A stretch of DNA of 64,000 nucleotides from positions 188,830 through 252,829 of the forward strand of contig NZ_AQWP01000003.1 in the NCBI RefSeq assembly GCF_000375585.1, in the 5' to 3' direction. Below, in pieces: positions 11,269 to 18,036 of this stretch (position 1 is its first letter; every line of letters starts with the position of its first letter). This DNA comes from Sinorhizobium meliloti 4H41. GTDB taxonomy: Bacteria > Pseudomonadota > Alphaproteobacteria > Rhizobiales > Rhizobiaceae. Made by a program: the position numbers and the translations under genes. The notes beneath the pieces are model-generated. The model did no database searches. It worked only from the letters and a program-made list of their open reading frames with translations, and was not told where the DNA came from.

Positions 11269-11324
11269 TTCGTGCGCTTCAACCCAGTCGGGAACCTTCC
11301 TGCCTGAGCGCGGTTTGCTTCGGC

Positions 11325-13868
11325 ATGCCGAAAGATGCAAATCAGCCGACCGTTGTCATTACCGGCTCCAGCGGCTTCCTGGGCCAGGCGATCGCGCATC
11401 GCCTGAGGGACCGGTATCGCGTCATCGGGCTCGATCTGTCCCCTCCGAAAGGCAAGTCCGAGACCGAAGAGACGATCAAATTCGACATCACCTCCGACGA
11501 AAGCGTGAGAGAGGCGATCGAGACGGCGGGTAAGCGCAGCGGCCGGCGCCTTGCTTCCGTCATTCATCTCGCCGCCTATTACGACACCACCGGCAAGGAC
11601 AATCCCAAATACGATGCCGTCAATGTCGAGGGCACGCGCCGGCTATTGGAGGCGCTCCAGGATCTTCCCACCGAACAGTTCATCTATGCAAGCACGCTGC
11701 TGGTGCAGGCGCCCAGTCCGGCCAGGGGTGCGCGGATCAACGAGGATGATCCGCTGGACCCCGCCTGGGCCTATCCCAAATCGAAGGCCGAGACCGAGGC
11801 GGTGATCGCCAGACATCGCGGCGCGATCAGGACCGTGACCCTCCGTCTCGCCGGCGTCTATGACGAGGACTGCCGAGCCGCTTTCATTGCCCAGCAGATC
11901 GCCCGCATCTTCGAGCGGCTCCCGACCGCCTATCTGTTCAGCGGCGATCTGGACGCAGGCCAGCCCTATCTGCACAAGGACGATCTGGTCGAGGCTTTCG
12001 CGCGCACGGTCGACCGTCGCAACGACTTGCCCGATGATTGCGTGTTGCTGATCGGCGAGGAGGAAACGCTCTCCTATGGCGACTTGCAGAAGCGCATCGG
12101 CCGGCTGATCCACGGCGAGGACTGGCGCACGCTCGCTCTGCCCAAGAGCCTCGCAAAGCCGGGGGCTTGGATGCAGACCGAGGTGCTCGACCAGGACTCG
12201 GAGATCAAGCCGTGGATGGTCGAGAACTCGGACGATCATTACGAGATCGACATCTCTCGTGCCCGCAACAAGCTCGGCTGGGAGCCGAGGCACAGCCTAG
12301 CTGCGACGTTGCCGGAAATGATCCGGCGGCTGAAGCAAGACCCGACCGACTGGTACGCGAAGAACAAGCTGGAGCCCTCCGTGGTCGCCGCCTCGGATCC
12401 CGAGATCGAGCAGGCGGAAAAAAGGCTGGCGGAGCCGCTGGAGCGCAGTGACGCCGAAGTCGAAGCTGCCGTGGAAGAGCACCGGCTGCGCACGCTCTGG
12501 GCGCCGCTGGCAAATGTCGCTCTCGGCCTGTGGCTCGTTTCCTCGCCGGCGACGCTCGGCCTTTTCGATCCCGTCAGCGTACCGCTGCCACCGGCGCTCG
12601 GCCACGAGATCGACGAACCCGCCATACGCAATGCCCGTCTCGGGACAAGCGAGATCCTGTCCGGATTGCTCGTTGCCGCATTCGCGCTTTTCGGCATGTA
12701 CCGGCGCTGGTCTCATGCGCAATGGATCACGGCCGCGCTCGGCGTCTGGATCATGCTGGCTCCGCTTGTCTTCTGGACGACGAGTGCCGCGGCCTACGCC
12801 ATCGATACGCTTGCCGGCATGCTGATCGTAGCCTTTGCGGTGATGATTCCGCCGACGCCCGGAATAAGGCTGCGGGCGCTCGCGGCCGACGACGACCGGC
12901 CCCTCGGCTGGAGCTATTCGCCGTCCTCCTTCACGCAGCGCATGCCGATCGTGGCGCTCGCCTTTGTTGGCCTCTTCGTCTCGCGCTATCTCGCCGCCTA
13001 TCAGATGGGCCATGTCGACGGGCTGTGGGACCCGTTCTTCGGGCCGGGCGAGGCACCCGTCCGCAACGGCAGCGAGGCGGTCGTGACGTCCTGGGTTTCC
13101 AAGGGCTTTCCGATCGCCGATGCCGGCCTCGGCGCCTTCGCCTATTCGCTGGACATTCTGGCCGGCGCGATCGGAGACAGCCGCCGCTGGCGTACCATGC
13201 CCTGGATGGTGCTCCTCTTCGGCCTGCTGATCGTGCCCCTCGGCGCCGTCAGCGTCTCCTTCATCATCATCCAGCCGCCGCTTATCGGCGCACTCTGTAC
13301 GCTCTGCATCATCCAGGCGGCCGTCACCGTCGTGCTCATTCCCTATTCGATAGACGAGGTGCTCGCCACCATCCAGTATCTCTGGCGCGTAAGGAAGGCG
13401 GGCGAGCCGTTCTGGCGGACGTTCTGGATGGGCGGCCCGGCCATTTCGGAGGATCAGACGCCGGCGCCCGACCTCAACCGTCCGGCCACCGAGCTGTTGA
13501 AGGAATTCATCGTCGGCGGCGTCAACTTTCCCTGGACGCTGGTCGCCAGCGCATTGCTCGGCGCGGTCCTGATGACGACGCCCTTGATTTTCGGCAGCGT
13601 CCCGCCGCTCTATCACAGCGACCACATTCTCGGCTGCGTCGTGATCCTGGTTGCCGTCACCGCCATGGCGGAGGTCGTCCGACCGGTGCGCTTCCTGAAT
13701 GTGCTGCTCGGCGCCTGCGTGGCGGCCTCGCCCTTCCTGCTTGCCGGCGGCAGCACGGTCGCTACCCTTGCCGACGTCGCGATCGGCTTGGCACTGATCG
13801 CGCTCAGCCTTCCGCGCGGGACGCGCAGCGAAGAACATTATGGCGGCTGGGACCGGGCGATCGTCTGA
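11325..13868 (+). CDS. Fusion: NAD-dependent epimerase/dehydratase + SPW repeats + VKOR-like membrane domain
   Basis: An 847-residue protein with a rare domain order. Residues about 8-340 are an extended short-chain (epimerase-type) Rossmann domain: VVITGSSGFLGQA for NAD binding, and Y-x3-K as YPKSK. From about 387 are membrane segments with the SPW-repeat look (LWAPLANVALGLWLVSSPA and a WIMLAPLVFW segment). About 530-690 resembles vitamin K epoxide reductase, including KGFPIADAGLGAFAY and the CxxC motif C658-T-L-C661. More membrane helices, SPW-like, run to the end. The pair of loop cysteines that shuttle electrons in canonical VKOR is absent. The start at 11325 (MPKDANQPT) is the first Met before the Rossmann motif; no strong ribosome site is seen. 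Function unknown; a redox role at the inner membrane is inferred. Confidence 0.8.
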   Translation: MPKDANQPTVVITGSSGFLGQAIAHRLRDRYRVIGLDLSPPKGKSETEETIKFDITSDESVREAIETAGKRSGRRLASVIHLAAYYDTTGKDNPKYDAVNVEGTRRLLEALQDLPTEQFIYASTLLVQAPSPARGARINEDDPLDPAWAYPKSKAETEAVIARHRGAIRTVTLRLAGVYDEDCRAAFIAQQIARIFERLPTAYLFSGDLDAGQPYLHKDDLVEAFARTVDRRNDLPDDCVLLIGEEETLSYGDLQKRIGRLIHGEDWRTLALPKSLAKPGAWMQTEVLDQDSEIKPWMVENSDDHYEIDISRARNKLGWEPRHSLAATLPEMIRRLKQDPTDWYAKNKLEPSVVAASDPEIEQAEKRLAEPLERSDAEVEAAVEEHRLRTLWAPLANVALGLWLVSSPATLGLFDPVSVPLPPALGHEIDEPAIRNARLGTSEILSGLLVAAFALFGMYRRWSHAQWITAALGVWIMLAPLVFWTTSAAAYAIDTLAGMLIVAFAVMIPPTPGIRLRALAADDDRPLGWSYSPSSFTQRMPIVALAFVGLFVSRYLAAYQMGHVDGLWDPFFGPGEAPVRNGSEAVVTSWVSKGFPIADAGLGAFAYSLDILAGAIGDSRRWRTMPWMVLLFGLLIVPLGAVSVSFIIIQPPLIGALCTLCIIQAAVTVVLIPYSIDEVLATIQYLWRVRKAGEPFWRTFWMGGPAISEDQTPAPDLNRPATELLKEFIVGGVNFPWTLVASALLGAVLMTTPLIFGSVPPLYHSDHILGCVVILVAVTAMAEVVRPVRFLNVLLGACVAASPFLLAGGSTVATLADVAIGLALIALSLPRGTRSEEHYGGWDRAIV

Positions 13869-13894: not shown

Positions 13895-14674
13895 TCAGCT
13901 CATCTGCGCAAGCACCATGACGAGCAGGAAGCCGGCGGCGTTGGCGATCGCCGAAGACTGCTGGAATTGATGCGACTCCGCTTCCGGCACGAGGTCGGTA
14001 ATCGTCAGGTAGAACATCCCGCCCGCTCCCGTCGCGAAGAGAAAACCGGTCACCGGCTGGACCAGGCCTTTCAGCAGGAACCACCCTGCAACGGCGGACA
14101 CGAAAAGGGAGAGGCCGATGAGGGAGGTCCATCCGAGCGTCCGGCGCTTCGCGTTCTTCCGCTCCTCGTCGATCGTCAATTCGCCGATGCTCATTCCTTC
14201 GCTGAAATTATCGATGCAGATCGCGAGACCCACGATAAGCGCCACTTTCGGCTCGAAGGTGGCGCCGACGCCGATCGTCATGCCTTCGATCAGCTCTTCC
14301 GCACTCGTGCCGCCGGCGAGCACCGCGACATTGCTCCCGCGCGGCTTGCGCCTTCGGTGCAACTGATCGACCTCGGCCCTTTGATCCGCCTCCGGCCCGG
14401 CCATTTTCCAGCGGTTGACGTAGAGGTCGAGAATATAGACGAGTCCCAGGCCGAGCAGAAATCCGGCAACGGCAAGCGGAAGACCTGCAAGTTCCATGGA
14501 GGTGGGCATCATCTCGAAAGCGAAGGTGCCCATGAGGACGCCGGCCGCGAAGCCGACCGCGATCGAGAGCACGAGGCTCGACGGCCTGAGCGAGATCGCC
14601 GCCAGGCCGCCCAGGGGCGATGCGACGGCCGCCGCCGCCGCGATTCCCAGGATGATCAAGAGATCATTGCTCAT
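13895..14674 (-). CDS. ZIP-family metal transporter-like membrane protein
   Basis: A 259-residue integral membrane protein with about 8 helices and a charged cytoplasmic loop around residues 92-112 (AEVDQLHRRRKPRGSN). The repeated ...EEGM-type helices match the ZIP fold: SAEELIEGMTIGVG and CIDNFSEGMSIGEL correspond to the two metal-binding helices. In standard ZIP proteins these helices begin with His (HN..EG, HE..E); here the positions are Glu and Asp, so metal selectivity may differ. The gene is downstream of a DNA ligase on the same strand, 21 bp apart. The family call is fairly firm, the substrate is not. Confidence 0.75.
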   Translation of the reverse strand: MSNDLLIILGIAAAAAVASPLGGLAAISLRPSSLVLSIAVGFAAGVLMGTFAFEMMPTSMELAGLPLAVAGFLLGLGLVYILDLYVNRWKMAGPEADQRAEVDQLHRRRKPRGSNVAVLAGGTSAEELIEGMTIGVGATFEPKVALIVGLAICIDNFSEGMSIGELTIDEERKNAKRRTLGWTSLIGLSLFVSAVAGWFLLKGLVQPVTGFLFATGAGGMFYLTITDLVPEAESHQFQQSSAIANAAGFLLVMVLAQMS

Positions 14675-14695
14675 CGCTGCCCGGATCCTCGGTTT

Positions 14696-15775
14696 TCAAG
14701 GCGATCCTTCGGTACGTACGATCTGCTCGTAGGTACATTGGCGCGGGTCCTTGTCCGGCCGCCAGCGCATGAGTTTCGTACCGTGGCGGAAGCGCCGGTT
14801 GCTGACATGGTCGAACCGGACTTCGACGACCAGTTCCGGCCGAACCGGCTGCCATTCGCCGCTGCGCTCGCTGCTCCAGCGGCTGGGCCCGCCCGGTGCC
14901 TTGCCGGTGAAGCCCGGCGGCTCCTGCAAAGCTTCGAGCTGGCGCGTCAGGGCAGGCCGCTCCTTGTCCGAGATCGTCGCGGTAAAGCCCACATGGTTCA
15001 GCAGTCCCTCGGTGTCGAAAAGGCCGAGCAGAAGCGAGCCGACCAAAGAACTGTCGCTCTCGTAGCGGAAGCCGCCGACGACGCAGTCGGCCGTCTTCAG
15101 CCGCTTGACCTTCACCATTGCCCTCTCGCCGCATTCATACGCGCCGTCGCGCCGCTTTGCGACGACCCCGTCGGTGGCACCCGCCTGCCATGAGGTGAGC
15201 CACCTCTCGGCCTCCTTAATGTCGAGCGTGAAGGGCGAAAGCTCGAGCATCTCCGCAGCCGCGTTCTCTTTGGCGAATGTCTCGAGGCGGGCGCGCCGTG
15301 CTGTCAGAGACTGGCCGGTCAGGACCGTTCCGTCGGTGCCGGCCAGCATGTCGAACAGGATGAGTTTGGCCGGCGTCTCCTGCGAGAGCTTCTGCACGCG
15401 GCTTGCCGCCGGATGCAGGCGCATCTGAAGAGCGTCGAAGGAAAGGCGCCCGTCGACCTCGATCACCAGTTCGCCGTCGAGGACGAACATGTCCGGCTCC
15501 AGTCGGCGCAGCAGGGCGAGGATCTCGGGGAAGAAACGCCCGAGCGGCTTGCCGGATTTCGCCCTTATGTCGACGTCCTCGCCGGACTTGAACGCAAGGC
15601 AGCGAAAGCCGTCCCACTTGGGCTCGTACTGCCATGTGTCGCCGCCCGGAAGCCCGGTCGCGGAACGGGCTTCCATCGGCGCCGTGCTGATGGGCAGGGG
15701 AAAGCTCCCCGCCTTCTTCGCCGCGCTTGACGGAGCGGCCTTCTTCGTCGGCTTTCCATGTGCGGGCGACGCCAT
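14696..15775 (-). CDS. ATP-dependent DNA ligase (LigC/LigD ligase-domain type)
   Basis: A 359-residue stand-alone ligase. Motif I is EPKWDGFR with adenylated Lys53. FVLDGELVI is motif III, and DGVVAKRRDGAYECGERAMVKVK covers motifs IV-V, completing the adenylation domain (about 30-220). An OB-fold domain follows (to about 345), ending RWRPDKDPRQCTYEQI. There is no polymerase or phosphoesterase domain, unlike full LigD. Such short ligases accompany the Ku/LigD end-joining set in rhizobia or act in base-excision repair; no Ku gene is in the window. A lysine/alanine-rich N-terminal tail (residues 8-22) may bind DNA. It lies 25 bp after the catalase gene, so it is likely co-transcribed. Confidence 0.92.
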   Translation of the reverse strand: MASPAHGKPTKKAAPSSAAKKAGSFPLPISTAPMEARSATGLPGGDTWQYEPKWDGFRCLAFKSGEDVDIRAKSGKPLGRFFPEILALLRRLEPDMFVLDGELVIEVDGRLSFDALQMRLHPAASRVQKLSQETPAKLILFDMLAGTDGTVLTGQSLTARRARLETFAKENAAAEMLELSPFTLDIKEAERWLTSWQAGATDGVVAKRRDGAYECGERAMVKVKRLKTADCVVGGFRYESDSSLVGSLLLGLFDTEGLLNHVGFTATISDKERPALTRQLEALQEPPGFTGKAPGGPSRWSSERSGEWQPVRPELVVEVRFDHVSNRRFRHGTKLMRWRPDKDPRQCTYEQIVRTEGSP

Positions 15776-15800: not shown

Positions 15801-17918
<2,118 letters not shown>

Positions 17919-18036
17919 TGCAGCACTCCTTGGTCGGGGGCGGATGGGCACGAAACCTTGGCGAGGGAGGTTGGTTCCCCTGCACGCAAAAATTACCCGG
18001 GCATCCGGCCTGCTGCTATCGCCGATTCCAAGAGGT

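Follow-up and report, generated by a model that had tools for sequence, protein, structure and literature searches.

DsbB (PF02600) is a quinone-linked thiol oxidase with a four-helix fold. Its likeness to VKOR (PF07884) and its two functional cysteine pairs are described in PMC4555120. Some members of the SPW repeat family (PF03779) have a VKOR domain or an epimerase domain in addition, according to the accessible part of PMC8078820, which is silent on the function, cysteines, promoter and genomic context of the fused form. Here we describe a gene of Sinorhizobium meliloti 4H41 that joins SPW, VKOR and epimerase-type domains. It is located at 11325..13868 (+) of a 64,000-nt stretch of contig NZ_AQWP01000003.1 (the whole stretch is called the window below), and encodes, without internal stop, an 847-aa membrane protein in the order SDR-SPW-VKOR-SPW, where SDR is a short-chain dehydrogenase/reductase. 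We determined by computation its architecture, predicted fold, conservation, topology statistics, promoter motif and genomic company. We propose, with a probability of about 0.4, that the protein is a stress- or metal-associated, quinone-binding VKOR variant, in which a single CxxC would be reduced directly by an external thiol or by Cu(I), with the SDR alongside.

Domain architecture, fold and topology

Profile searches placed every part of the chain above the curated Pfam cut-offs: Epimerase (residues 10-235, 86.8 bits versus a cut-off of 20.9), VKOR (residues 541-676, 77.4 versus 27.5) and SPW (PF03779; two stretches, 68.3 versus 31.5). An earlier reading of this DNA (the original prediction) had described a three-part protein with NAD-binding epimerase-type, SPW-like, VKOR-like and further SPW-like segments in a single 847-residue chain; the domain content was confirmed by the searches, while the number of parts is four. 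The extended SDR domain (NAD-dependent epimerase type) covers residues 8-345 (11346..12359; this and all other features within the gene are on the + strand). It has both motifs of its family, TGxxGxxG as TGSSGFLG (residues 13-20; 11361..11384) and YxxxK as the active-site YPKSK (residues 150-154; 11772..11786). The first SPW segment, with predicted transmembrane helices TM1-TM4 (model helices and topology prediction), covers residues 392-507 (12498..12845), the VKOR-like four-helix bundle residues 536-684 (12930..13376; Pfam and structural match to solved VKORs), and the second SPW segment, with predicted TM9-TM12, residues 737-828 (13533..13808; 737-829 by Pfam, supported by the model).

The AlphaFold2 model of the protein has a pLDDT of 87.5. 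Comparison with solved VKOR structures shows the expected four-helix bundle over about residues 534-688, as the original prediction had anticipated. Twelve membrane helices are predicted after the SDR, in the order SPW-VKOR-SPW, and the topology prediction places the SDR and the CxxC on opposite faces of the membrane. The SDR domain is probably cytosolic, and the C terminus after the twelfth helix is predicted to be cytosolic as well. The CxxC itself, CTLC (residues 658-661; 13296..13307), is predicted to lie at the periplasmic end of VKOR helix 4.

Cysteines are present at positions 183, 239, 658, 661, 771 and 798. The C658-x-x-C661 pair was therefore correctly recognized, and the span reported to be free of cysteine (about 530-657) extends in fact over the whole of residues 240-657. 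Pfam found ten families in the protein, with neither a thioredoxin nor a flavin domain among them. Of the NCBIfam matches, none of the 25 listed (of 35) reached its cut-off.

Conservation of the cysteines and of the SDR

Conservation was assessed in 81 full-length rows, the window protein and 80 loci, the latter being the best 80 of 530 confirmed loci (out of 589 matched stretches). Loci were picked in a contig scan by the peptide patterns [RK]RWRTMPW and V[IV]HLA[AG][YF][YF]D, so that conservation at about residues 78-87 and 620-627 is partly built in. A second set, of membrane-module proteins (the SPW-VKOR-SPW part), comprises the best 120 of 2138. The homologue survey agreed with the pattern suggested originally: G14, G17 and G20 of the Rossmann motif are invariant (81/81), both cysteines of the CxxC are kept in 73 of the 81 rows and in 118 of the 120 module proteins, and a loop cysteine occurs in none of the 120. 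A single cysteine somewhere in 541-656 is found in three of the 81 rows. Y150, S153 and K154 are likewise invariant, and T13 is present in 80 rows. Residue 37 is Asp in 75 rows and Glu in six, which we take to be the usual mark of NAD preference.

Two canonical VKORs from the class sample, L119 and L124, served as templates for hhalign and MAFFT alignments (the VKOR of L122 was left out). The places of the first and second canonical loop cysteines are taken by D569 and S583 (13029..13073); D569 aligns with the first loop cysteine of L124, and S583, a Ser or Thr in all 81 rows, with the second loop cysteine of both templates. Ser589 (13089..13091), invariant in 81/81 rows, aligns with the second Ser of the L119 VKOR, six residues past the second loop cysteine, the same spacing as that of the catalytic Ser57 in human VKORC1; the hhalign alignment with only L119 is weak (probability 24), and in L124 this place is not a Ser. 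Three of five VKOR signature residues are thus present in the window protein, the active-site CxxC (Cys132/135) and the Ser57 equivalent, and the loop pair (Cys43/Cys51) is missing.

The eight rows without the CxxC have S-x-x-A instead. Seven of them form, together with P0236, one clade (Microvirga, Sphingomonas, Acetobacteraceae) in a tree from which 14 rows, mostly near-duplicates and including the SxxA row L089, were left out. A further relative, L037, has ATLT in place of the CxxC. These losses favor an alternative in which the SDR is the only enzyme and the VKOR-like bundle serves as a membrane anchor, structural or quinone-sensing, with optional thiols, all the more as the SxxA rows have lost neither the SDR motifs nor, with few exceptions, the other conserved VKOR positions. 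However, the module also occurs without a fused SDR: 83 of the 120 module proteins have <60 residues ahead of the position that matches residue 391. Some of these may be contig-end fragments; others are on contigs of about 90-190 kb. In 82 of the 83 the CxxC is kept, often as the only cysteine pair in the chain, which points to a thiol function. We consider the anchor role rather unlikely, yet the best of the alternatives to a one-pair VKOR variant.

The module is not tied to one kind of SDR. P0178 has a complete classical SDR instead, and P0143 a part of one. In the five haloarchaeal plasmids examined (five of the six haloarchaeal rows in a listing of 60 out of 137 records) the module is a gene of its own with an SDR gene 2-93 nt downstream. 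It is annotated as SDR family oxidoreductase in four of the five (classical by Pfam in two and by similarity in two); in Haladaptatus the neighboring SDR is NDUFA9-like, an extended SDR without YxxxK. In Candidatus Manganitrophus (Nitrospirota) an SDR is found two genes after the module, and in Cupriavidus a classical SDR gene stands beside an epimerase-SPW-VKOR fusion. Between haloarchaea, Nitrospirota, Cupriavidus and P0178 the classical SDRs share 51-79% identity, indicating related cassettes common to different domains of life, which commonly hold genes for GH15 and a four-helix copper-binding protein; the cassettes may have spread by horizontal transfer. L132, L135, L137, L138, L186 and L187 all have the GH15 (glucoamylase/trehalase-type) gene next to the module, a recurrence that spans haloarchaea, Nitrospirota and Cupriavidus. 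The recurrent pairing of SDR and module speaks for a lasting association of the two. That the type of SDR can be exchanged speaks against an electron route built precisely around a single SDR.

This bears on the idea, put forward in the original prediction, that the fused NAD domain substitutes for the loop cysteines. The protein would then be an NAD(P)H:quinone or disulfide reductase, with the SDR passing electrons of NADH via quinone to the CxxC and with no need for loop cysteines or a thioredoxin partner. The fusion in the window family, the adjacent haloarchaeal genes and the second, classical SDR class of P0178 and P0143 agree with it, as do the SDR motifs being more conserved than the CxxC (81 rows) and the phylum sample, where all module places are in frames long enough for an SDR fusion. 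On the other side, SDR and CxxC are predicted on opposite faces, SDRs normally move hydride to a carbonyl and no flavin domain was found among the ten families, modules without a fused SDR also lack loop cysteines (their bacterial gene neighbors being unseen), the SDR beside the Haladaptatus module lacks YxxxK, and the SxxA clade keeps its SDR. The substitution idea is weakly supported, and we regard the NADH-to-CxxC path as improbable.

Promoter motif, metal genes and distribution

An EcfG/RpoE2-type motif, GGAAC-N17-GTT, is found at 11291..11315 (+), ending 9 nt before the ATG. The consensus of this type is GGAAC-N17/18-GTT. The motif occurs within 120 nt upstream of 26/26 genus orthologues (window included), versus 38 of 8000 random 120-nt pieces; among the contig-scan loci it was found in 11/11 of the genus and in 5/68 of the others. 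An alternative upstream ATG would give a 921-aa reading of the same frame; the start at 11325 is likelier, because the genus-conserved motif ends at 11315. With the motif so close to the ATG, an almost leaderless transcript would be expected. Transcripts without a leader have been reported for S. meliloti in PMC3616915, where the string GGAAC is absent.

The neighborhood also contains a large catalase gene (15801-17924, −) with the same EcfG-type motif upstream (17978-17954, −) and, downstream of it on the same strand, an ATP-dependent DNA ligase gene (14696-15775). The two likely make a stress gene group. In S. meliloti Ak57 genes for an alpha/beta hydrolase and a LysR regulator are located between the ZIP transporter and DNA ligase genes; window positions 14674-14696 leave no room for them. 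On a Sphingomonas paucimobilis plasmid (L143) the neighbors of the gene encode a universal stress protein, Hsp20, YfdX and K+ efflux functions, a setting reminiscent of transmissible stress-tolerance islands.

Outside Sinorhizobium, copper or heavy-metal genes (cop, cus-like, cueR, DUF411, four-helix copper-binding) accompany the gene in 16 of 19 plasmid stretches, which we chose from 28 non-Sinorhizobium/Ensifer rows among the 60 listed records. At least one such marker was found at 22 of 69 non-Sinorhizobium genomic loci and at none of 40 control regions; the marker queries came from the plasmid islands, those for CueR and RND also match looser relatives, the 69 loci are not independent (e.g. 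two Brevundimonas), and the controls were arbitrary places in 17 genomes covering 740 kb versus 1111 kb for the 69 loci. A Met-rich stretch (of the type MMPGMSxxxMM) separates SPW1 and VKOR in 33 of the 81 rows (e.g. L070 and L066), and L080 and L101, two of eight rows printed, have a His/Met-rich linker before TM1; both features look like metal-binding sequence. That the protein is a copper or silver handling protein, with Met/His-rich loops and CxxC binding or oxidizing Cu(I) and quinone taking the electron, would fit this company and these stretches but seems improbable too, given that the window protein and 47 other rows have no Met-rich stretch, that the stretch is cytosolic by predicted topology, and that island genes may ride along without a shared function. 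A wider reading takes the four-helix copper protein, GH15, SDR and SPW-VKOR-SPW as a cross-domain stress/copper cassette, whose one-thiol-pair VKOR, linked across the membrane with an SDR that uses NAD, would be a new kind of quinone-thiol or quinone-Cu(I) device fused to two SDR classes; this is unlikely.

A copy over nearly the whole length is present in 26 of 32 Sinorhizobium/Ensifer genomes, the window's own included. At the DNA level the gene is 98.2% identical to the copies on three Sinorhizobium sp. replicons; among the S. meliloti records listed, one reaches 97.8% and the others, pSymB of strain 1021 included, ∼95%. Outside the genus the distribution is scattered: 5/385 class genomes and 6/398 phylum genomes (the own genome counted in both). 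Any VKOR match was found in eight of the 385 class genomes, five of which are the carriers of the SDR-SPW-VKOR-SPW gene. The best 80 contig loci come from Alpha-, Beta- and Gammaproteobacteria, and the one-pair VKOR branch as a whole is found in Proteobacteria, Nitrospirota and haloarchaea. Two copies, L029 (genome G038) and L104, are interrupted by an in-frame stop, which suggests that decay of the gene is under way in some genomes. In two Rhizobium plasmids (H54 and H98) the feature annotated under the match is ‘DNA polymerase III subunit epsilon’; this is probably an annotation error, or else a feature that overlaps the gene.

Proposed mechanism and comparison with known systems

In the mechanism that we infer, the protein would be a general-stress membrane oxidoreductase of VKOR fold with twelve membrane crossings and the SDR in the cytosol. 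The bundle would keep the quinone-facing half of VKOR chemistry, namely the outer-face CxxC and the Ser57 equivalent. As there is no relay cysteine pair, the single CxxC would be reduced directly by a donor from outside, which could be a periplasmic thiol protein, a small thiol, Cu(I) or a metal-thiolate, and electrons would pass from the CxxC to ubiquinone. The SDR would be a co-selected partner on the cytosolic face, acting on a carbonyl or nucleotide-sugar-type substrate, and not the donor to the CxxC. In Sinorhizobium the general stress sigma factor EcfG/RpoE2 may switch the gene on.

Several points weigh against this mechanism. Loss of the CxxC in the SxxA clade (8/81), where the rest of the protein is so well retained, and in L037 means that thiol chemistry is not required everywhere. 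Both cysteine pairs are called fully conserved among VKORs in PMC4555120, and VKOR activity without the relay pair is putative, as are the substrate, the quinone and the metal of the window protein. Foldseek alone gave a best VKOR match with an E-value of 0.04 (probability 1.00). All seven module places of the phylum sample (in the six genomes) are in open frames of at least 831 aa, long enough for a fused SDR, so that fusion is the norm in that sample. The link to copper is weak within Sinorhizobium/Ensifer, the genus of the window, where one of 11 loci has a marker, and three of the 19 plasmid stretches (L139, L143 and L145) have no copper gene.

The domain pairings are already in print at annotation level (the accessible part of PMC8078820; public domain lists). 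Our literature search turned up neither a function for the combination, as the original prediction had it, nor any account of the missing relay pair in the rows covered, of the predicted topology, of the stress-type promoter, of the partnership with SDRs across domains of life or of the copper islands. Since VKOR and DsbB have been described as needing two cysteine pairs, a branch with the active pair only would test whether the relay pair is essential to the chemistry of the fold. The SDR links, the copper islands and the stress-type promoter in rhizobia lead to direct experiments on an uncharacterized protein.

Compared with VKOR (Synechococcus 3KP9/4NV2, human VKORC1 6WV3), the window protein has the same four-helix bundle, the CxxC at the start of helix 4 and the Ser57 equivalent; unlike VKOR, it has no loop cysteine pair or detected thioredoxin domain, is flanked by SPW segments and bears an SDR. 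With the SPW repeat family it shares its Pfam content, and the three families SPW, VKOR and Epimerase occur jointly in 120 listed relatives. It resembles the extended SDRs (PF01370) in the Rossmann and YxxxK motifs and in fold, and differs from them in the fusion to a membrane module. DsbB, finally, differs in its two functional cysteine pairs, and a separate DsbB is present in the genome of the window.
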